Below the pieces are notes generated by a model that saw nothing but the letters and a program-made list of their open reading frames with translations, was not told the origin of the DNA and searched no databases. A DNA stretch of 38,738 nt from Anaerolineaceae bacterium (GTDB lineage Bacteria > Chloroflexota > Anaerolineae > Anaerolineales > Villigracilaceae). Below, in pieces: positions 11,098-38,265 of the stretch. Numbering within the stretch: position 1 is the first letter of the stretch; each line of letters starts with the position of its first letter. Made by a program: the position numbers and the translations under genes. The stretch spans positions 1-38,738 of the forward strand of contig VFJR01000174.1 in NCBI GenBank assembly GCA_009885945.1, read 5' to 3'.

Positions 11098-11880
11098 CTA
11101 AGCCTGCAACCCGATCAATGCGCCGAATCTACCCGTTTTGCCTTTTTCTGCGCGATGCGAGAACCAATCATCCAAATGACAGGCTGTGCAAACTCCAGCT
11201 ACTTCAACCTGTTCAACGCCTGCCCTTTGTAGTTGAATCAAATTCGACTTCCATAAATCTAAATAAGTTTTACCATCCCGTCCTTCAACCAGGCGATCTA
11301 TATCTTTTCCAAATACTGTTTGAAAGCGAGTAATCACATCCTTGCCCACTTCATAATGATCCTGCCCAATAGAGGGACCAATTGCCGCTTGAATATTTTC
11401 TGGCTTGCAAGCGTAACGTGATTTCATCGCCGCAATTGTTACACCTGCCAGGTTATCCACGGTTCCCTGCCAGCCCGCGTGAGAAATACCAACAACACCT
11501 TGCACAGGGTCATGAAACAACAATGGTACACAATCTGCAAAGCGCATATAGAGGGTCACATCTGGTTTATCTGTCAGTGTAATATCTGCTTTGTGCATTT
11601 CTGTTTTTAAGTCGCGGGGCGCGTCAGCGTAGATAACGCTTGTGCCGTGAACCAGCCACACGTCAAAAAGAGAAGCGACTGGTCGGTTAAGTGCATTAAA
11701 AGAACGGGCGCGGTTCTCAATCACATGAGAGGCGTCATCTCCTACTGCTCCGCCCACATTTAAAGAATTCCAAGGCGCAGGGCTTACACCGCCCTGACGG
11801 GTAAAAACCGCTTGCGTAATTGATTTGGAAAATTTTTCGAACGAAAAATAACGAATGCCATTTTTTGAATGAAAGAACAT
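11098..11880 (-). CDS. pgeF: Multicopper-laccase-fold protein PgeF/YfiH
   Basis: A 260-residue member of the PgeF/YfiH (DUF152) family. Family enzymes are described as purine nucleoside phosphorylase/adenosine deaminase, and in E. coli as peptidoglycan editing. Zinc-site motifs are present: HGTSVIYAD, ADCVPLLFHD and GISHAGWQGT, plus IGPSIGQDHYEVG. The ATG overlaps the stop codon of the upstream gene by one base (TAATG), implying coupling to the glutaredoxin-DUF2085 gene. pgeF is commonly a neighbour of yggS, as seen here. Confidence 0.93.
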   Translation of the reverse strand: MFFHSKNGIRYFSFEKFSKSITQAVFTRQGGVSPAPWNSLNVGGAVGDDASHVIENRARSFNALNRPVASLFDVWLVHGTSVIYADAPRDLKTEMHKADITLTDKPDVTLYMRFADCVPLLFHDPVQGVVGISHAGWQGTVDNLAGVTIAAMKSRYACKPENIQAAIGPSIGQDHYEVGKDVITRFQTVFGKDIDRLVEGRDGKTYLDLWKSNLIQLQRAGVEQVEVAGVCTACHLDDWFSHRAEKGKTGRFGALIGLQA

Positions 11881-12893
11881 TATTCTTCCAAAGCCTGTAT
11901 TGCGGCAAGTTTTTTCAAATAGAACTGACGCGTTTCATTCATAGATTCTTCGATGCTTGGATATGCAAACCAAGCTGTTAGACCGCCAAACAACGCGCCT
12001 GTTAGAACGCGCAAAAACGGAGTGCTTTCACGATAGGGCAATATTGCGTTTAACCAACCAAAATTAAACTGGCTAAAAAGTTGCGAGAAGCCATCTAAAC
12101 CAATAGGACCAATGCCAAGTACCAACCAAACCAGCCAATGTAACTTCGGGAGTTTTCTGCCCACAGCCCAAAAGATTAATCCAAACAAAAAAATAGCTGA
12201 ATAAATAGCAGTGTCTCTTTCGCATAACGCCACTTTAAAGCCAAGTTCATCATCACCAATATATTGACGAGCCTGAAACCTTGAGACTGCGTACGGATTG
12301 CCCAGGTCTTGAAATTGCGTAACTTCTTCAAAAGTTTTTACGCCGGCGATATTTGCTTCAGCCAAGGGATAGTAAGGCTGCGCTCCAAACAAGAAAAAGG
12401 AGCGAAATCCAAATTGATGACAAAGCGGGCTATAGACTTTATAAATAACAGCCGCGGGGGTTTTAAAGCCATAATGCATCAAAGTCGGCGCGAGCAGCGG
12501 CAAGCCAAAGTAAACCAACATTAGGATATTCAAGCCTGCCAGATAATGCCGAGCGATCCAAAAAGAAAAACGGTCGCCAAAGTCAAAAGTTTTTACGCGT
12601 TTTGCATTTTCCATATAACCTTTATTGTCAATTTGTTTTATCTGCATGTTTCGATCAAAAGCCGCACCCACCACCATTTGCAGGTTCTGTTTTGTAACAG
12701 GAAATTGAGTCTTAAATGGACCCGCCTCTACAAATGGAACTTGATTATCATATTTCTGTTTCAAGACCGAATCCGAATCAATATCCAATTCCAGCAGATG
12801 ATGCGGAAATTTCTCCTGCAGAGCCAGCAGATCTTCTTTGGTCTGTTGGCAAGCAGGGTCATTTTTTCGGAAGTACAAGGTTACATTTAGCAT
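11880..12893 (-). CDS. Glutaredoxin-like domain fused to DUF2085 membrane protein
   Basis: A 337-residue protein in two parts. Residues 1-80 or so look like a glutaredoxin-type thioredoxin fold (VTLYFRKNDPACQQTKEDL, then VPFVEAGPF as the cis-Pro region), with a single cysteine C15. Residues from about 110 onward are membrane-spanning with the DUF2085 signature VYSPLCHQFGFRSFFLFG and, later, CERDTAIYSAIFLFGLIFW. DUF2085 has no established function. The gene begins 12 bp after ccdA and is translationally coupled to pgeF. The position next to ccdA suggests thiol chemistry at the membrane; this is inference. Confidence 0.8.
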   Translation of the reverse strand: MLNVTLYFRKNDPACQQTKEDLLALQEKFPHHLLELDIDSDSVLKQKYDNQVPFVEAGPFKTQFPVTKQNLQMVVGAAFDRNMQIKQIDNKGYMENAKRVKTFDFGDRFSFWIARHYLAGLNILMLVYFGLPLLAPTLMHYGFKTPAAVIYKVYSPLCHQFGFRSFFLFGAQPYYPLAEANIAGVKTFEEVTQFQDLGNPYAVSRFQARQYIGDDELGFKVALCERDTAIYSAIFLFGLIFWAVGRKLPKLHWLVWLVLGIGPIGLDGFSQLFSQFNFGWLNAILPYRESTPFLRVLTGALFGGLTAWFAYPSIEESMNETRQFYLKKLAAIQALEE

Positions 12894-20406: not shown

Positions 20407-21666
20407 CTACTTTTCCTCAATACTCACACTTATTAAAACATCGCCCATCGGAATATCATCAGTTTGCTGTGGGTCACGAGCAGTTAATTGCTCCAAAACA
20501 TCCATACCTTTAATGACTTGCCCAAAGACAGTATAAACCCCATCCAAAGTTGGCTGGGATGCATATGTAATAAAAAATTGACTGCCATTTGAATCAAGAC
20601 CCGAATTTGCCATACCCACTACGCCGGGTTTATCAAACTTAAGCCCGTTATCGGCTTCATCTTTATAAAAATACCCGGGGTTGCCAGCGCCTGTTCCGCT
20701 TGGGTCGCCTGTTTGCGCTATAAACCCGGGCAGTACGCGGTGAAACGTAACACCATCATACCAACCTTGGCGCGCCAAAAAGACAAATGAATTAACCGCT
20801 AGCGGGGCTTTCTCAGGAAAAAGCCGAATCACAATTTCCCCTTTTTGAGTTTTGAGTGTGGCTATATAACTATGTGTAATATCTATATCAAAAGCAGGAC
20901 ATGTACCAAATTGTTTTTGCCCCAACGCAATTACACCGATCATGCGATTCAAACTGCTGAAATCACTGACGTATGTTTGCTGTGGAATACCATTGATTAA
21001 CATTAACGGCACCGATGTAACTCCCAACTGAATCAGCGCTTCGTTCCAAGCCCTGACAGTTGATTCTGCTTCCGAGCTTTTTAAATCCAGCCTGAATTTT
21101 TCCGCATCAACGCCTAGCTCTGGCACTTCCTTCATTAACCAAGACTCAAAGCCAGCCGGAGGCAAGCCCGCCCATTGAGCATATTTTAGATGCAGCAACT
21201 CATACATCTGCCAAAATTTATCCTGCTGACCTGCCGCGTAAGCCGCCTGAGCCGCAAGCTGGGAATTTGGGTAAACAGTGGATTTTAGCAAAGGGATCGG
21301 GCGAAAAACAAAACGAACGTCTTCTGGTTGACGCTGCATTATTTTCTGCATCGTCAACGCCAAATCATGACAGGCTTGAGTCTGAAAATCACAATACTCA
21401 ATTACAGTAACCGCGGCATCTTGTGCGCCTAGAATATGATCGCTTTCATTTACAGCAGGAAAATCTGAGCTTTGGGCTACCGCAGGCGTCGCTTCCATTT
21501 GAATAGTTGAACAGCCCACCTCAACAGGGGTTGGTAAAGCAGTGCTCAAAACAGATGTTGTTGGTTGTGCAGTTGCCTGAGCTAGTTCAACCTGATCAGA
21601 TGATGAACAGGCGGCTGCAAAAAAACTGAGCACTATTGTTAAAAATATTTTTTTATCGATTGTCAT
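20407..21666 (-). CDS. Lipoprotein fusing a DsbA-like domain to a cyclophilin
   Basis: A 419-residue predicted lipoprotein (lipobox FFAAAC, C20) with a Thr/Pro linker. Residues of about 75-245 form a DsbA/Thioredoxin_4-like domain (HILGAQDAAVTVIEY, VRFVFRPIPLL, cis-Pro region GVTSVPLMLING). Residues of about 265-415 form a cyclophilin peptidyl-prolyl isomerase (VTFHRVLPGFIAQTGDP, GSQFFIT, VFGQVIKGMDVLE). The usual CPYC site reads T96-Q-A-C99; the first Cys is lost, while C92 lies just upstream. It probably acts as an extracytoplasmic folding factor. TAATG overlap couples it to the upstream metalloprotease-like gene, and PrsW follows 1 bp after. Confidence 0.88.
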   Translation of the reverse strand: MTIDKKIFLTIVLSFFAAACSSSDQVELAQATAQPTTSVLSTALPTPVEVGCSTIQMEATPAVAQSSDFPAVNESDHILGAQDAAVTVIEYCDFQTQACHDLALTMQKIMQRQPEDVRFVFRPIPLLKSTVYPNSQLAAQAAYAAGQQDKFWQMYELLHLKYAQWAGLPPAGFESWLMKEVPELGVDAEKFRLDLKSSEAESTVRAWNEALIQLGVTSVPLMLINGIPQQTYVSDFSSLNRMIGVIALGQKQFGTCPAFDIDITHSYIATLKTQKGEIVIRLFPEKAPLAVNSFVFLARQGWYDGVTFHRVLPGFIAQTGDPSGTGAGNPGYFYKDEADNGLKFDKPGVVGMANSGLDSNGSQFFITYASQPTLDGVYTVFGQVIKGMDVLEQLTARDPQQTDDIPMGDVLISVSIEEK

Positions 21667-30623: not shown

Positions 30624-31739
30624 TCACTCCAACGGAGAGACTGTTTGTAGACAAAATTCAGGTAAAATTATCTCACCCCCAAACGAAACGGGAACGGCGC
30701 TGTTGCAGTGGCTGTTCTCGTTTTCATTTCTGGTGGGGCGCTCGATAAAAGCTGTGGTTCTGGATATGGGCGGATTAATCCAAACTGCTTTGGGCAATTG
30801 GGTAGGACGTGGGGCTCCTTTCACAAAACGTTCTGGCGTTTTTTCATATGCAACTTGCAACACGGCTTGACGTTTTTGTAGGACATCCTCTGCGCGGCGG
30901 AAGTGAACATCCGCAGGAGTAAGCAACGCCAGTCCCGTGTGATGATGTTCGCGGTTGTACCAATCGAAGAATGTAGCAGCCCAAGCACGTGCATCTTGCA
31001 GACATCCAAAACGAGTGGGATAGTCAGGGCGATATTTCATAGTTTTAAACTGCGCTTCTGAATATGGATTGTCATTGGATACATGCGGGCGGGAATGGGT
31101 CTTCGTCACACCGAGATCTGCCAACAGCAACGCCACTGGTTTGGAAGTCATCGCGCTCCCACGATCGGCATGGACGGTAAGTTGCCCGCGCTCGATTCCC
31201 TGCCGTGCGCAAGTTTGTGAGATCAATTCTTCCGCCAGTACAGCTGATTCACGCTCTGCGATCATCCAGCCCACAACATAACGGCTGTACACATCCAAGA
31301 TCACATACAGGTAGAAATAGGTCCACTTGGATGGTCCCAATAATTTGGTGATATCCCAACTCCACAGTTGATTGGGAGCTGTAGCTAGCAGTTCCGGCTT
31401 GGTATAGTTTGGATGGCGCAACTGGTCGCGACGCTCACGGATTTCATGATTCTCATCCAAAATCCGATACATACTGCGCCAGGAGCATAGATAGCGACCT
31501 TCGTCGATTAAAGTCGCATACACTTCGCGCGGCGACCTATCTTGAAACCGCTCGCTGTTGAGTTCTTCGCGAACTTTGATTTTCTCGACCTGGCTCAAAG
31601 CACGCGCAGAAATCTTGGGACTGCTGCGTGCAGCCTGTGGCGCTCGAGCGCGATAGAGACTGCTGCGCGGTACGATCAAGGCCGCGCATGCGGCTTGTAC
31701 TCCAACGCTCTTTCCAAATACTTCTGCAGATTGCATCAA
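30624..31739 (-). CDS. IS3-family transposase OrfB (DDE integrase domain)
   Basis: A 371-residue transposase with an N-terminal HTH_21-like region and an rve integrase core. Catalytic residues: D129 (WSWDITKL), D192 (VHADRGSAM) and E228 (SNDNPYSEAQFK). The last two are 35 residues apart, the DD(35)E spacing of IS3 elements. Its ATG overlaps the OrfA stop by 4 bp (ATGA), so expression would be by translational coupling or frameshifting. The ORF is intact, so the element may still be active. Confidence 0.95.
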   Translation of the reverse strand: MMQSAEVFGKSVGVQAACAALIVPRSSLYRARAPQAARSSPKISARALSQVEKIKVREELNSERFQDRSPREVYATLIDEGRYLCSWRSMYRILDENHEIRERRDQLRHPNYTKPELLATAPNQLWSWDITKLLGPSKWTYFYLYVILDVYSRYVVGWMIAERESAVLAEELISQTCARQGIERGQLTVHADRGSAMTSKPVALLLADLGVTKTHSRPHVSNDNPYSEAQFKTMKYRPDYPTRFGCLQDARAWAATFFDWYNREHHHTGLALLTPADVHFRRAEDVLQKRQAVLQVAYEKTPERFVKGAPRPTQLPKAVWINPPISRTTAFIERPTRNENENSHCNSAVPVSFGGEIILPEFCLQTVSPLE

Positions 31740-32149
31740 GAGTCCTTGCTCAGGTCGTTGTCTGCGAGTGTGACTCCAAGCAATCGCGCAACTTTTTTTT
31801 GGACATCGATGATTAATTCCGCGCGTTGTAATTGCTCTTGCAATCTTTTGTTCTCACGTTGCAGGCGTGCTAACTCAACTGCATTGGCGTCCACCTTGGG
31901 TCCGCGCCGATGTTCTGACAACCCTGTCTCTCCCCCGCGTTCACGCTGCTCCCGCCATTTGCTCACCAATGATGAATACAACCCTTCCTTCCGCAGCAAC
32001 GCACCTACTTCGCCTTTGCCCTTGCAATCATCTATTTCACGAAGGATGCGCAGTTTGTACTCCGCTGAATGTTGGCGACGCTTGGCTTTGACGACTACTT
32101 CGGTCTGCGTTTCTGCTTCTTCCGACTTGCCGTTCTGTTCTTGAGACAT
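31736..32149 (-). CDS. IS3-family transposase OrfA (helix-turn-helix)
   Basis: A 137-residue DNA-binding subunit. Residues of about 25-75 form a Transposase_8-type helix-turn-helix (HSAEYKLRILREIDDC, GLYSSLVSKWREQRERG). It is followed by a leucine-zipper-like coil (ELARLQRENKRLQEQLQRAEL) typical of IS3 OrfA. A GGAGAAAAGG lies just before the ATG at 32149. It overlaps OrfB by 4 bp. Confidence 0.93.
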   Translation of the reverse strand: MSQEQNGKSEEAETQTEVVVKAKRRQHSAEYKLRILREIDDCKGKGEVGALLRKEGLYSSLVSKWREQRERGGETGLSEHRRGPKVDANAVELARLQRENKRLQEQLQRAELIIDVQKKVARLLGVTLADNDLSKDS

Positions 32150-32399: not shown

Positions 32400-33365
32400 A
32401 TGTCTGCAACAAACAACCCGTTTATCACTGTTGTCATTTTGACAGGGATTCAAAGAAAAAGAGCTGAAAAGACTCTGGCAAGCATTCTTAATCAAGAAGG
32501 GCTGGAAACGGCAGAGGTGCTCATTTTTGATACGGTACTGGGTAAGTATCCCCCTTTGAAGGGCAGCGAACACCCTGCAGTAAAAATCATAGCTAGCACA
32601 AGCGCAACATCCTATAGCGGCTTGCGCGCACAAGGCGCTGAGATTGCACGCGGACAAGTCATTTCTTATTTGGAAGATCATGCCGAAGCATTGCCCGGCT
32701 GGTTTAAGGCAATAACGAGGGGCATTGAGAACGGACATGCCGGAGTAGGCGGGGTGCCACAGGCGTCTAATGCGGGTGTGGGGTTTAGTGATATTAGCGG
32801 GATGATCAATTATAAATACGCACTTGATGCTTCCTCACCACAGGCTTATGTTGCACCCACTTTACCAAATCACAATTCAGCCTATCGCCGTGATGTGCTA
32901 TTATCTTTTGGAGATCAATTGCGCACCATGCTCACCAGTGATTCTATCTTAGGCATCAAAATCACTGAAAAAGGATATTCCTTATTAATAGACCCAGAAC
33001 TTCGGTTCTTGCATGCAAATCTGGTAAATTCATTGATGGTCGGCAGAAATTTCTTCTATTGGAATATCATTTTTGGCAGAGCACGCGCACAAATATTTAA
33101 ATGGTCATGGTTGCGGCGGGCATTGCAAATCTTTATTACGCCAATTTCTCCTTTCATACGTTACTTCAAGTATTTTTTGCATGTACAAAAATACAATCGA
33201 GAAAAACTGCCCCTATTTTTTCGCAACGCTGTTACAGCGCTTTATACCCAAACAGTAGCGGCAGTAGGCATAGCGATTGGGTGTTTATTTGATGTAAAAA
33301 ACGCAGAAATAAAATTCCTCAAGTACGAACTTGATTTAGAACATTACGGATTAAAGTCGTCTTAA
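32400..33365 (+). CDS. GT-A-like glycosyltransferase, paralogue 1 of 3
   Basis: A 321-residue protein with a GT2-like fold: TVVILTGIQRKRAEKTLASIL at the N-terminus, EVLIFDT, then SYLEDHAEALPGW (EDH at 92-94) in place of a normal DxD, and HNSAYRRD at 158-165. Further on come LLIDPELRFLHANL and a hydrophobic C-terminal helix (TVAAVGIAIGCLF). It shares this whole plan with 34218-35171 and with 36058-37041. GAGG lies 5 bases before the ATG. It probably transfers a sugar onto a membrane-linked glycan; donor and acceptor are unknown. Catalytic competence is not certain. Confidence 0.82.
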   Translation: MSATNNPFITVVILTGIQRKRAEKTLASILNQEGLETAEVLIFDTVLGKYPPLKGSEHPAVKIIASTSATSYSGLRAQGAEIARGQVISYLEDHAEALPGWFKAITRGIENGHAGVGGVPQASNAGVGFSDISGMINYKYALDASSPQAYVAPTLPNHNSAYRRDVLLSFGDQLRTMLTSDSILGIKITEKGYSLLIDPELRFLHANLVNSLMVGRNFFYWNIIFGRARAQIFKWSWLRRALQIFITPISPFIRYFKYFLHVQKYNREKLPLFFRNAVTALYTQTVAAVGIAIGCLFDVKNAEIKFLKYELDLEHYGLKSS

Positions 33366-33438
33366 TATTTGCGCCTGTTATGATGGCTGTGGATATTCTC
33401 AATATAATTTCATGATCACAGGAAAAAAGCACAGGCTT

Positions 33439-34221
33439 ATGACAACGCACAAAATTGACAACGATCTTTATAATCGCATTCCCGAAGAATGGTGGAGTGA
33501 AAGAGGATTATTGCACATCCTTAAATCAGCCACAAACCCATGGCGTGTTCCTTATTTCACGCGCAATCTTGCAGACTTAAAGATTGACCCAAAAGGAAGA
33601 ACGGCGCTCGAAGTAGGCTGTGGCGGCGGGTTGCTAACCGAGGAAATTGCACGTATGGGATTTAAGGTGACCGGCTTGGATATTTCAGAAAAATCTCTAG
33701 AGGTAGCCCGCATCCATGCCAGTGAAAGTAACTTGCTGATCGATTATCAATACGGCACTGGCGATGATTTGCCTTATCAAGACAGTACATTCAACGCTGT
33801 ATTTTGCTGTGACACATTAGAACATATCGAGAATTGGGATAAAGTCATCTCGGAAATATCACGCGTGCTCATGCCAGGCGGGGTCTTTTTCTACAATACT
33901 GTTAATCGCACGCCGGAGAGTCTCAAGAATGCCATCAAAATGATGCAGGAATGGTGGCTGACACGCTTCGCTCCTCCCAATTTACACGTCTGGGAAATGT
34001 TCATCACACCAGACGAATTGAATTTATCAATTGAAAAGCACGGACTGCTCAACCAGGGGCTGACCGGCACCAAGTTCGTTGGCAGCGCCTTTCAAGTTTT
34101 TTCTGCCATTCTGCTGTTTAAGTTTAGGATGATATCTTCTGTAGAGTTTGGCACACGCATACAAACAATAGAAGGCGACGACACATCCGTTAATTATATG
34201 GGCTACGCGGTGAAACCATGA
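33439..34221 (+). CDS. UbiG-like SAM-dependent methyltransferase
   Basis: About 260 residues with a class I methyltransferase fold resembling UbiG: NRIPEEWWSERGLLHIL, motif I ALEVGCGGGLLTEEIA, GLDISEKSLEVA, FCCDTLEHIENWDKVI and LMPGGVFFYNTVNRT. UbiG itself O-methylates ubiquinone precursors. Here, flanked by glycosyltransferase genes, an O-methyl transfer to a sugar or to a lipid head is more plausible (inference). A TATAAT box at 33403-33408 places transcription start inside the first possible ATG (33412), so I prefer the ATG at 33439, which has AGG upstream. Its stop overlaps the next gene by 4 bp. Confidence 0.85.
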   Translation: MTTHKIDNDLYNRIPEEWWSERGLLHILKSATNPWRVPYFTRNLADLKIDPKGRTALEVGCGGGLLTEEIARMGFKVTGLDISEKSLEVARIHASESNLLIDYQYGTGDDLPYQDSTFNAVFCCDTLEHIENWDKVISEISRVLMPGGVFFYNTVNRTPESLKNAIKMMQEWWLTRFAPPNLHVWEMFITPDELNLSIEKHGLLNQGLTGTKFVGSAFQVFSAILLFKFRMISSVEFGTRIQTIEGDDTSVNYMGYAVKP

Positions 34222-35171
34222 TGATCTCAAAACCCTACATTTCTATTATTTTCGTCATAGGAACCCAGCGCGAACGCTCACAACAAGCCCTGGTAAATAT
34301 TCTTGAACAAAAGGGAATTGAAAATGCCGAGGTGCTTATTTTCGATACGGCGTTTGATCAATACCCTGCCTTAGCAGGCAGTCATCATCCATCTGTACAT
34401 ATTCATGAGGTTAAAGGCTCTTTATCCCTCAGCAACCTTCGCCTAAAAGCTGTGGAAGCCGGGCGTGGGGAGATTATTGCTTTTACTGAAGACCATGCCT
34501 ATGTCATTCCCGGCTGGTTGGAATCCTTAACAAGAGGGTTTGAAGCAGGCCATGGCGGAGTAGGGTCCGTGCCTCAAGTTAAAAATCCCGGCATGGGCAT
34601 TAGCGATGCTGTTAATATAATCAACTTCGGCTTTTTCCCTCCTATTACTAAGCCATGTACCTATTACATGTTACCCGGACATAACTCTGCCTATCGCCGT
34701 GACATACTACTATCCTTTGGAGACTTGCTCCCTATTCTAATCACCACTGAAGTTCTATTAAATTCCAAAATGACCGAAAATGGTTTCACCCTCTTATTAG
34801 ACCCGCAGGCTGGGTACTTTCATCAGAATGAAGAATCAGTTGCAATGGTTACGAAGGCTTATTACTATTCAAATCTATGTTTTGGGGCAAGCCGTGCAGA
34901 ATTGTTTGGCTGGCGCTGGTGGCGCCGCGCATTACAACTACTATCTACGCCATTGGTTCCATTCGTGCGCTACCTAAAATACATGGTTTATTTCTGGCGG
35001 CATAACCGAAGCAACCTGCCCATCCTGTTCCGTTACACAGCAGTATTTTTTTATACACAGAGTATAGCCGCCATCGGATTGGCAATTGGCTGTGTTTTTG
35101 GAGCAGGCAATGGCGAAAAAAACTTCTTGCACTACGAACTTAACACCAGTAGAAGTATCCAACATTCCTAA
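34218..35171 (+). CDS. GT-A-like glycosyltransferase, paralogue 2 of 3
   Basis: A 317-residue paralogue of the protein at 32400-33365, with the same motif order: ISIIFVIGTQRERSQQAL, EVLIFDTAFDQYPALAG, IAFTEDHAYVIPGW, PGHNSAYRRDILLSFGDLL, LLLDPQAGYFHQNEE, and a C-terminal hydrophobic helix (SIAAIGLAIGCVFGAG). The ATG overlaps the methyltransferase stop (ATGA), and its stop overlaps the next ATG by one base (TAATG), so four genes form one coupled operon. Function presumably as for paralogue 1, acting on a different step or sugar. Confidence 0.82.
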   Translation: MMISKPYISIIFVIGTQRERSQQALVNILEQKGIENAEVLIFDTAFDQYPALAGSHHPSVHIHEVKGSLSLSNLRLKAVEAGRGEIIAFTEDHAYVIPGWLESLTRGFEAGHGGVGSVPQVKNPGMGISDAVNIINFGFFPPITKPCTYYMLPGHNSAYRRDILLSFGDLLPILITTEVLLNSKMTENGFTLLLDPQAGYFHQNEESVAMVTKAYYYSNLCFGASRAELFGWRWWRRALQLLSTPLVPFVRYLKYMVYFWRHNRSNLPILFRYTAVFFYTQSIAAIGLAIGCVFGAGNGEKNFLHYELNTSRSIQHS

Positions 35172-36061
35172 TGACCTTGCCTCCTGCCATTGCACTCATC
35201 ATCCCATCCTATAATTCCTTCCGCACCATTGAGCAATCTCTCAATTCTTTTTGCAAACAAGATTACGCCTTATATGAAATCATTGTTGTAGACAGCAGTC
35301 CCAACAACCTTGTAAAGCAGATTGTCACAAATCATTTCCCGCAAATCAAATTTATCCATTCAAAGGAACGTCTTCTGCCGCACGCCGCTCGAAATGTGGG
35401 AGTTAAAAATACATCATCAGAATTATTGATCTTCACAGATCCCGATATTTATGCCCCGCCAAATTGGATAAAATGTCTTGTAGAATCTTATCAACAACAT
35501 GGCGGAGTAAGCATTGGCTCGCTGATGAATCACACAAATTCCTGGCTAGACTGGGGAATTCATCTGGGGAAATTCGATTCTTTCTTGCCCGAACCTGCCA
35601 CCCGTCCAATTGGCTTTTGCGCCACTGCAAACATGCTCTGTTCCCGCGCCGACTTTGAGAAAGTAGGTGGCTTTGAAAATGATGAAATGCTCGGCGATCT
35701 TCTTATCAGCTGGAAGTTTACAGAAAATAACATCCCTATTTTTCTAGCGCCGCAAGCTGTCGCGGCACACCATCACACACAAACCTATTTCAATTTCCTA
35801 CATGAGCGGTATGTGCGCGGCGCAGATTTTGGCAGATTACGCCGCGCTGAATTTCACTGGACAAAGTTCAATACATTTAAACACATTCTAATGATCGTAG
35901 TAGGCATACGTTTTGCAAGCCTTATAATAAGAGAAACAATCCATGCATGGAAAGCAAAACTGCTCTTAAAATTTTTATATACTATGCCCATATCGCTCAG
36001 CGGACAAGTATCATGGCTATGGGGAGAAATGAACGCATATCTTCGTCAGCGTAATGATTAG
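35171..36061 (+). CDS. Glycosyltransferase family 2
   Basis: A 296-residue GT2 enzyme of classical type: IALIIPSYNSFRTIEQSLNSF, IIVVDSSPNN, then the metal-binding FTDPDIYAPPNWI (DPD), and a C-terminal AHHHTQTYFNFLHERYVRGADFG. It ends with a hydrophobic helical tail that may bind the membrane. It belongs to a branch distinct from its three-paralogue neighbours, which lack the DPD motif. Its last 4 bp overlap the convergent gene on the other strand. Confidence 0.9.
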   Translation: MTLPPAIALIIPSYNSFRTIEQSLNSFCKQDYALYEIIVVDSSPNNLVKQIVTNHFPQIKFIHSKERLLPHAARNVGVKNTSSELLIFTDPDIYAPPNWIKCLVESYQQHGGVSIGSLMNHTNSWLDWGIHLGKFDSFLPEPATRPIGFCATANMLCSRADFEKVGGFENDEMLGDLLISWKFTENNIPIFLAPQAVAAHHHTQTYFNFLHERYVRGADFGRLRRAEFHWTKFNTFKHILMIVVGIRFASLIIRETIHAWKAKLLLKFLYTMPISLSGQVSWLWGEMNAYLRQRND

Positions 36062-37041
36062 AACTGGATCAATTTTGTTTTCGGAATACGCTCGGTGTCG
36101 CGCTCCCGCTCAGAAAACAGACGAGGCGCTTGTCCTTCTCCAAAAAGCAAACCCATAGCTTGCCCCATGCTCTCACAATAATATAGCCACAATATCATCG
36201 GTGCATTAATCATGAAACGAGACAGTTGATCTCGGCGTTTCTTAAGAATATACAATAACGTTTTTGCACTATGCCACCAAGGCAACAAAGGCAAGATTAA
36301 GAGTCTCATCAATCGTTGTGATATTGACCAATGAAATATAACCGCGCGGGTATGGCCAAATATTCGATGCCAGTAATACAAACTTGAGGACGCTGAACGA
36401 AGCGAGGCTTCATTAACATGAATAAATTTGGCAGCCGGTTCCAATAACAACTTGTGTCCATCCTCCCGCATCTTAAGCAGGAGAACAGCCTCCGCACGCA
36501 GCATCATCTCCAATTGATCTCCGTAACCCAATAAAATATCACGTTTATAAGACGAGTTGTGCCCGTCAATCATGAAAACCTCGCCCTTCTCGGCAGGAGA
36601 TTGCCAGCGAATATTTCTGGCGGTCATAAATTCGGCGTTGCTAGTACCAAGTTCGGGGTTTCCATTGATCACTTCGCCGCAGACAGCTCCCCAGGGCTCC
36701 TTGTGGGCTTCGACCAACGCTTCAGCCCAGCCGGGCAGGACAATGCAATGTTCTTCAAGCAGAGCTACAACAGGCGCGCGAGCCGCCCGTATTCCTACCA
36801 CCATGGCTACTTCAAAATTGGTATCCGCCGGCATATTGATCAAACGCACGCACTCATGGTCGCTGCCCGGAAATGGCGGCGTGTCCGCTGAGACACAATC
36901 AACGACCAAAATTTCCATGCGGTCAATAATGTTTTGTCTCAGTAAAGCTTGCAAAACATGGCTGCTCAACTTGCGTAAAAATCCAGTCACTACAATTACA
37001 GATAAAACAGGGGTCGCTACCATAAATGATTCATTCTCCAT
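36058..37041 (-). CDS. GT-A-like glycosyltransferase, paralogue 3 of 3 (opposite strand)
   Basis: A 327-residue paralogue of the proteins at 32400 and 34218, inverted relative to them. Motifs: LSVIVVTGFLRKLSSHVLQALL, EILVVDCVSADTPPFPGSDHE, VVALLEEHCIVLPGW (EEH for EDH), IDGHNSSYKRDILLGYGDQL, LLLEPAAKFIHVNEAS. It is more diverged at the N-terminus (VSADTPPFPGS). The first ATG lacks a Shine-Dalgarno; a second ATG at 37023 has GGAGA 11 bases upstream, so the start is uncertain. The gene is convergent with the GT2 and divergent from the GT4. Confidence 0.82.
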   Translation of the reverse strand: MENESFMVATPVLSVIVVTGFLRKLSSHVLQALLRQNIIDRMEILVVDCVSADTPPFPGSDHECVRLINMPADTNFEVAMVVGIRAARAPVVALLEEHCIVLPGWAEALVEAHKEPWGAVCGEVINGNPELGTSNAEFMTARNIRWQSPAEKGEVFMIDGHNSSYKRDILLGYGDQLEMMLRAEAVLLLKMREDGHKLLLEPAAKFIHVNEASLRSASSSLYYWHRIFGHTRAVIFHWSISQRLMRLLILPLLPWWHSAKTLLYILKKRRDQLSRFMINAPMILWLYYCESMGQAMGLLFGEGQAPRLFSERERDTERIPKTKLIQF

Positions 37042-37062
37042 ATAAACTTAATTGCCTAACAC

Positions 37063-37070
37063 AGTATACT
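37063..37070. promoter_or_regulatory. Palindromic AGTATACT, shared divergent -10 box
   Basis: AGTATACT is self-complementary, so TATACT reads in both directions at the same place. It lies 16 bp before the plus-strand GT4 start and 21 bp before the minus-strand paralogue start, in a 45-bp intergenic gap. Neither side has a good -35 hexamer. It could promote both genes, exclusively of one another. Confidence 0.4.
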
Positions 37071-37086
37071 TAATTTTTAGTCTTTT

Positions 37087-38265
37087 ATGAAACCACGTAT
37101 TCTTATGCTTACCCATCAATGTGCTGGAACTGGCGGAAGCTATATGCGCGCAACCTCGCTGGCACGCCCCCTAGTTGAGCTGGGCTACGATATGACCTTG
37201 ATTGCCAGCCGCGCTGAACCCGGCTTTACAACCCGCAGATCAGAATGGCATGGCGTACATATCATTGAAATGCCAGATATATTACCTCGGCGCATTCGCA
37301 ACGCCGGACTGAGTCCAATAGATCTCGCGTCGCGCCTCGCTCATACTTGGCGAGGCAACTACGATCTTTTTCATATCTTCGACCACCGCCCTTCTGCATC
37401 TCTACCCGCCCTGTGGAGATTAAATAAAAATATTCCTGTGGTATCCGACTGGGCTGATCTATGGGGTGTGGACGGTTTTGCAGAACAGCGCCATGAGTTT
37501 ATGAATATATTTTTAAAGTGGCTAGACTATATTCTTGAACCCTACATACATAAAAAAGCACAGGCAGTAACAGCCATCAGCTTGGATCTAGTCAAACGCG
37601 CTATCCAGCTCAAGGTCCCGGGTGAACGAATTCTTCTGACTCAGGTTGGTTCCAACTCAGACATCATTCACCCTATGAACAAGAATGAGGCGCGCATCAA
37701 ATATGGAATTCCAAAAGATTGCCCAGTCGTGGCATATTGCGGATTTTCATTCCTTGATTTAAACCTGCTAATCGATTCCTTCCTCAAATTAATTGAACTT
37801 GTTCCAAACGTACATTTGGTGATGACGGGCGCGCAAATTCCCGCATTTGATCGCATAATGACACAGCATGGGGCGGCTCAAAGAGTTCATCATTTTGGAA
37901 CTGTTCCTTATGAACAACTGGGTGAAATTCTTTCATGCGGAGATGTGATGCTTTTGCCCTATTTGGATACAAAAGTAAATATAGCAAGATTCCCAAACCG
38001 TTTTGGAGAATATCTGGCAGTAGGCAGACCTATCGCCACCAACCGTGTGGGGGATCACGCTGTTATTGTTGAGCAGGAAAAAATTGGAATTACGACCATG
38101 CCCGATGCGCACTCGCTTGCAGAAGGAATTGCTTCCTTACTCCAATCTCCCATTCAAATTGATGAAATGGGACAACGTGCAAGGCGGCTGGCTGAAACCA
38201 GCTTTACATGGAAGGCAATTGCGATGCCTGTTGCAAAACTTTATGATGTGCTTTTAATGAAATAA
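37087..38265 (+). CDS. Glycosyltransferase family 4 (GT-B fold)
   Basis: A 392-residue GT4-type enzyme: N-terminal PRILMLTHQCAGTGGSYMRATSLARPLVELGYDMTLI-type acceptor domain start, DLFHIFDHRPSASL, and a C-terminal donor domain with VAYCGFSF, HHFGTVPYEQLGEILSCGDVMLLPYLD and the retaining-GT motif FPNRFGEYLAVGRPIA (E-x7-E-like region). It closes the glycosyltransferase island. No Shine-Dalgarno is seen; TATACT 16 bp upstream implies a leader of about 10 nt. Sugar and acceptor are unknown. Confidence 0.9.
   Translation: MKPRILMLTHQCAGTGGSYMRATSLARPLVELGYDMTLIASRAEPGFTTRRSEWHGVHIIEMPDILPRRIRNAGLSPIDLASRLAHTWRGNYDLFHIFDHRPSASLPALWRLNKNIPVVSDWADLWGVDGFAEQRHEFMNIFLKWLDYILEPYIHKKAQAVTAISLDLVKRAIQLKVPGERILLTQVGSNSDIIHPMNKNEARIKYGIPKDCPVVAYCGFSFLDLNLLIDSFLKLIELVPNVHLVMTGAQIPAFDRIMTQHGAAQRVHHFGTVPYEQLGEILSCGDVMLLPYLDTKVNIARFPNRFGEYLAVGRPIATNRVGDHAVIVEQEKIGITTMPDAHSLAEGIASLLQSPIQIDEMGQRARRLAETSFTWKAIAMPVAKLYDVLLMK

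Follow-up and report, generated by a model that had tools for sequence, protein, structure and literature searches.

Background

What do glycosyltransferases do with a Glu-x-His motif at the place where their family keeps a metal-binding DxD, and what do the genes around them make? The question is raised by the window analyzed here, a stretch of 38,738 nucleotides from an Anaerolineaceae bacterium (contig VFJR01000174.1), in which three paralogous proteins, p1, p2 and p3, carry E(D/E)H (ExH). To our knowledge, no ExH member has been biochemically characterized, and a literature search for 'EDH motif' combined with glycosyltransferase found no paper. Metal binding in GT-A enzymes involves the DxD motif and, in many of them, a C-terminal His (C-His) near the end of the fold, and families GT27 and GT60 have DxH in place of DxD (PMC7185993). 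In a solved GalNAc-transferase, the Mn2+ is held by Asp276, His278 and His414 (PMC11074326).

Layout of the island

All six ORFs that an earlier note on this DNA had described between 32400 and 38265 of the window were confirmed. The gene of p1 (32400..33365, plus strand, 321 aa; PF00535 34.6 bits against a cut-off of 23.3) is followed by genes for a UbiG-like class I SAM methyltransferase (33412..34221, plus strand, 269 aa; TIGR01983 149.7 bits against a cut-off of 102.95), p2 (34218..35171, plus strand, 317 aa; PF00535 32.5 bits, cut-off 23.3), a partner GT2 whose motif is the canonical D-P-D (35171..36061, plus strand, 296 aa; PF00535 87.9 bits), p3 (36058..37041, minus strand, 327 aa; PF00535 41.0 bits, cut-off 23.3) and a GT4 glycosyltransferase recognized by a family profile match (37087..38265, plus strand, 392 aa). 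The overlapping starts said to link the methyltransferase, p2 and the GT2 were found as ATGA (methyltransferase end and p2 start) and TAATG (p2 end and GT2 start). The minus-strand position of p3, which makes it convergent with the partner GT2, was absent from the note.

The upstream border of the island is a two-gene insertion sequence identified by profile matches (HTH_Tnp_1 plus rve; 30624..32149, minus strand), which lies about 250 bases 5' of the island and has a GC content of 0.508, above that of its surroundings. Beyond the island lies the start of a double-zinc-ribbon protein gene, truncated at the contig end (38415..38738, plus strand). Since this unrelated gene follows 150 bases past the GT4, we rejected the idea of the island as the tail of a larger exopolysaccharide locus broken off with the contig. 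Genes for a flippase, a polymerase or a sugar-phosphate transferase were not found within the island, from the insertion sequence to the zinc-ribbon gene. A foreign origin was likewise rejected on base composition, which gave no signal (GC 0.446 against 0.448 upstream), and promoter and terminator scans returned counts not above those in shuffles. Elsewhere in the window, two single ORFs were seen to join a DsbA/thioredoxin-like domain with a cyclophilin-type peptidyl-prolyl isomerase domain (20407-21666) and a glutaredoxin-like domain with a DUF2085 membrane domain (11880-12893).

Motif and predicted metal site

The motif is E92-D93-H94 in p1 (32673..32681, plus strand), where E92 and H94 are predicted metal ligands by alignment to the D-x-H of ppGalNAc-T; p2 reads E91-D92-H93 (34488..34496, plus strand) and p3 E96-E97-H98 (36748..36756, minus strand). 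It is followed by xxxxPGW in all three proteins, which also share HNS(A/S)Y(R/K)RD and a later His element, so these elements of the motif plan reported in the earlier note were recovered. Alignment to the window genome's full set of 25 PF00535 proteins places ExH exactly on the DxD column, as had been claimed; ExH occurs only in p1, p2, p3 and a fourth copy, most of the others carrying DAD, DGD, DSD and the like. p1, p2 and p3 all pass the curated PF00535 (Glycos_transf_2) threshold, and their assignment as glycosyltransferases forming a group of their own stands.

The later His element reads FLHAN in p1 (H205, 33012..33014, plus strand), FHQNE in p2 (H202, 34821..34823, plus strand) and IHVNE in p3 (H208, 36418..36420, minus strand; placed by sequence and structural alignment). 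By alignment, the His of this element, which the note had written as FxHxN, is the conserved GT-A C-His, and the two motifs can thus be taken together as a single predicted metal site, E-x-H plus H, with H205 of p1 as the predicted third protein ligand. Among 19 homologues from three phyla, the first Glu is found in 18 (Asp in the other), while the motif His, the C-His and R164 are invariant (19/19 each) and the middle motif residue varies (D, E, T). These homologues differ widely in the rest of their sequence (roughly 20-45% identity). The ExH enzymes lack the canonical xED Glu. At the xED column, the place of the catalytic base, 17 of the 19 have an acid, which in this alignment is absent from G101 and G1408; it is D181 in p1 (32940..32942, plus strand) and Glu in p2 and p3.

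Taken as a loss, the note's 'instead of DxD' is not supported by these data. The nearest solved relatives, by profile and by Foldseek rank, belong to GT27 and have a Mn2+-binding D-x-H plus His, which would make ExH a D-to-E variant of a known layout; Glu is one methylene longer than Asp. In the PF00535 alignment, D-A-H is present in ordinary GT2s of related genomes, so His at that position is not rare in itself and the motif varies inside the family. These D-A-H proteins (LDAHS) resemble the ExH enzymes in the His at the third motif position and differ in having Asp first, falling in a separate alignment group, keeping xED intact and having no His at the C-His column. The most fitting description of ExH is therefore a D-x-H layout whose Asp is replaced by Glu, with the predicted metal site retained. 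No solved structure with the exact Glu-x-His/His metal site was identified in this analysis.

Fold and family membership

A model of p3 was obtained with AlphaFold (pLDDT 82.8, pTM 0.83), and one of p1, built from a four-row alignment, was discarded (pLDDT 51). The top Foldseek matches of the p3 model were to GalNAc-T2 (E 6.7e-10), to which VIA-align gave Z 20.6 over 189 residues with an rmsd of 3.1, a score that ties with those of RmlT and WrtF; a Z of about 20 to solved GT-A enzymes assigns the model to the GT-A fold. The aligned range ends at residue 211 of p3 and residue 362 of GalNAc-T2, and, assuming no gap near this end, H208 of p3 would fall on H359 of GalNAc-T2, which we take to be a metal ligand. 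A profile of ten ExH sequences also found ppGalNAc-Ts as its best PDB matches (2.1e-10), with DCH, DAH or DSH aligned on EEH and the following Trp conserved. The hydrophobic C-terminal helix ascribed to all three paralogues was found in p1 and p2, which pass a 19-residue hydropathy threshold; p3 fails it, though its model shows long C-terminal helices.

The ExH enzymes share with GT27 the GT-A fold, an acid-x-His element in place of DxD with a conserved Trp after it, and a distant C-terminal His. They differ from it in the Glu that replaces Asp, a length of about 320 aa, long C-terminal helices, a retained acidic xED residue, a setting in bacterial glycan gene clusters and the lack of a ricin-type lectin domain (no Pfam match in p1-p3). 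By two tested GT27 features, D-x-H (here Asp to Glu in 18 of 19, with both His kept) and the lectin domain, they are not GT27 members. From the GT2/PF00535 enzymes (solved examples are SpsA, K4CP, RmlT and WrtF), with which they share a profile score above cut-off, Z values of about 19-21, the C-His and an acid at the xED position, they are set apart by an HN(S/T)(A/S)Y(R/K)R motif, by the loss of the first acid of xED and by ExH, which in all four copies of the window genome replaces a DxD that is usual in GT2, not strictly defining. The MftF-like GT2s (TIGR03965) are the best NCBIfam match of both the partner GT2 (76.6 bits) and p3 (34.7 bits), far under the 280-bit cut-off, and none of p1-p3 reached the cut-off of any NCBIfam curated equivalog. 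No curated family model assigns these enzymes a product. We file the ExH group as an unnamed variant inside the GT2-type GT-A enzymes, with GT27 as its nearest analogue in the metal site.

Copies, distribution and phylogeny

The fourth ExH copy of the window genome is located on contig C29 (5105-6067) and is 53% identical to p1. Identity is 45% between p1 and p2 and 30-32% between p3 and either of them; p1, p2 and the C29 copy form a recent clade with p3 outside, and p3 is nearer to G053_a (41%) than to p1 (30%). On this evidence p3 is a separate and older lineage, and the picture of p1-p3 as one recent trio has to be given up. The C29 locus repeats the ExH plus GT2 pair, its GT2 being 52% identical to that of the window, from which we infer that the two genes were probably duplicated together.

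Of 400 genomes in the order, 7 contained strong relatives (E < 1e-15). At E < 1e-20 the ten-sequence profile matched 10 of 400 genomes of the phylum Chloroflexota, 11 of 346 in Actinomycetota (the phylum of Desertimonas) and 2 of 349 in Pseudomonadota (the phylum of Paracoccus), counts that include matches without ExH. Checked carriers of ExH are G053 (three copies, one with D-E-H), G040, G089, G076, G953, G101, G145, G897, G1160, G1408, G1263 (two copies, ETH) and G1628. Three groups were resolved in the tree, namely the window's clade, a Gfo-linked clade (G953, G101, G1160, G1408 and G1263) and an array clade (G145, G897 and G1628).

The DNA pattern E[DE]HxxxxPGW gave four matches in the window genome, all in the four ExH genes. 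In 396 genomes of the class its other matches were scattered, several with in-frame stops (e.g. L065-L067), and included no clear additional ExH member; the reversed control gave about nine matches. We take the occurrence of the pattern in the four ExH genes to exceed chance. A profile search of genome contigs with the first alignment returned only two GT2s with DDD motifs, which were later used as alignment rows. Relatives were not found in viral contigs, and plasmids yielded two weak matches only.

Two kinds of gene arrangement were observed besides. Arrays of GT2-like genes in which the DxD position varies between neighbors (EDH, EDD, NAQ, DPY, SAH) are present in G145, G897, G974 and G1628 (L052:4878-10964, L120, L121 and L167), with Gfo/Idh/MocA-like and FAD-enzyme-like genes near some of them. 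On contig C3 of the window genome (G000; L134:16851-19998), two tandem genes that look sulfotransferase-like by eye precede a glycosyltransferase-like gene at the contig end.

Conserved gene partners

A DxD-type GT2 gene lies directly 3' of the ExH gene in 10 of 11 loci. Within the window's clade it is a D-P-D GT2 in all six (p2 of the window, C29, G053, G040, G089 and G076), the ends of the two genes often overlapping or nearly so, and the ExH and GT2 trees of this clade are concordant in their well-supported parts. Another DxD-type GT2 follows the ExH gene in G953, G1160, G1408 and G1263 of the Gfo-linked clade (45-74% mutual identity), and the exception is G101, where the next gene is GT4-like as read from its sequence. 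Close homologues of the window GT4 were found among the fetched loci only beside the ExH genes of G053 (42%) and G076 (40%). WecG/TagA-type and sugar-phosphate transferase genes adjoin the G040 and G053 loci. The conserved partners are thus a DxD-type GT2 and, in the window's own clade, a GT4, the same two that had been noted beside the paralogues.

At 6 of the 11 loci of the window's and Gfo-linked clades, the ExH gene has a Gfo/Idh/MocA sugar oxidoreductase either fused to it or nearby. PF01408 and PF00535 share a single ORF in G040 and G101; the gene is adjacent in G953 and G1263, and one GT4 gene intervenes in G1160 and G1408. The two fusion ORFs (L034:8178-10346 and L044:169-2238) come from genomes that belong to separate families within the order. 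Only 2-10 PF01408 genes occur per genome in these oxidoreductase-linked genomes, so a chance neighbor within two genes is expected, by our estimate, in roughly 1% of loci or fewer. No such gene was found beside the ExH copies of the window genome (four PF01408 genes, none beside ExH genes), G076 or G089, and the G053 locus is cut by a contig end. The linked oxidoreductases score far under the cut-offs of named oxidoreductase families.

The methyltransferase behaves otherwise. Apart from one weak partial match in G897, no homologue was found at other ExH loci, and its proposed link to the paralogues was not borne out. With regard to the outcomes that the note had offered as decisive, no characterized product was matched among the curated family models, and GT2 and GT4 proved to be conserved neighbors in other genomes while the methyltransferase did not.

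Proposed function and alternatives

We consider p1-p3 to be metal-dependent, GT2-type glycosyltransferases of the GT-A fold with a predicted E-x-H plus C-His metal site, whose joint product with the GT2 and GT4 would be a short, lineage-specific glycan or glycolipid of the cell surface, and we give this reading a probability of about two in three. Counting against it are the longer side chain of Glu, the missing canonical xED Glu, the two homologues with no acid aligned at that column, and the lack of flippase, polymerase and sugar-phosphate transferase genes in the island. In the mechanism proposed, a divalent metal holding the diphosphate of the nucleotide sugar would be bound by the first Glu and the His of E-x-H together with the C-His (E92, H94 and H205 in p1), a layout like the D-x-H...H of ppGalNAc-transferases with Glu replacing Asp. 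The transfer would be inverting, its base most likely the Asp or Glu at the xED position (D181 in p1, Glu in p2 and p3). The C-terminal helices may place the enzymes on the membrane, where they would pass the growing glycan to the D-P-D GT2 and the GT4 in sequential action, and in the window genome the methyltransferase may cap the product.

Membership of GT27 itself, or direct bacterial ancestry to it, with retaining transfer of a sugar onto protein or peptide, would account for the first rank of ppGalNAc-Ts in both profile and Foldseek searches and for the D-x-H type layout with its C-His. We regard it as highly improbable, since the profile match is confined to about 115 positions at the N-terminus, the structural Z is equalled by ordinary bacterial GT-A enzymes, the lectin domain is missing, the acidic xED residue retained in 17 of 19 homologues is the base of inverting enzymes, and genes of lipid-linked glycan assembly lie at the related G040 and G053 loci. 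Conservation also bears on whether p1-p3 include catalytically dead helpers of the DxD-type GT2, for which a member of the duplicated pair would be the likeliest candidate. Dead enzyme copies usually lose catalytic or ligand residues; here E, H, the C-His and the acidic base position persist over three phyla at roughly 20-45% identity, and such a role is unlikely despite the nearly constant GT2 pairing and repeated duplication that would suit it. GT-A pseudoenzymes do exist, COSMC being one (PMC7185993).

The remaining alternatives concern the product. A pathway dedicated to making a methylated surface glycan, as the earlier note had proposed, is compatible with the position of the methyltransferase between p1 and p2, with the overlap of its end and the p2 start, and with its UbiG-like character, to which sugar O-methylation would fit in this setting. 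The enzyme scores above the UbiG equivalog cut-off, and the glycosyltransferase surroundings argue against a role in ubiquinone synthesis. Its absence from other ExH loci leaves the methylated glycan to the window genome alone, at most as a local addition, and we hold the dedicated pathway doubtful. A sugar made by a Gfo/Idh/MocA enzyme (3-keto, epimerized or amino) as the substrate that sets the group apart would refine our main reading and is compatible with it. The fused, adjacent and near-adjacent genes speak for this idea, and the fusions are suggestive of an oxidized or epimerized sugar as the substrate of at least some members. With no oxidoreductase beside the ExH copies of three genomes, the window's included, and no named family matched near its cut-off, we rate it a real possibility at somewhat under even odds. 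More tentative still is a wider proposal, in which the ExH enzymes would be a GT-A family of their own, marked by a Glu-x-His/His metal site, and would transfer the oxidized or epimerized product of the Gfo/Idh/MocA enzyme to which they are fused in some species; the paired DxD-type GT2 would act next, forming a hitherto undescribed two- or three-enzyme rare-sugar module for bacterial surface glycans.

Conclusions

The ExH enzymes define a rare branch of bacterial glycosyltransferases, found in Chloroflexota, Actinomycetota and Pseudomonadota, in which 18 of 19 members have Glu for the first metal-binding Asp. The branch supplies testable ligands and gene partners, and its likeness to animal GT27 bears on the origin of DxH enzymes. 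An unusual donor sugar is indicated by the oxidoreductase fusions, which also provide a ready experimental handle.
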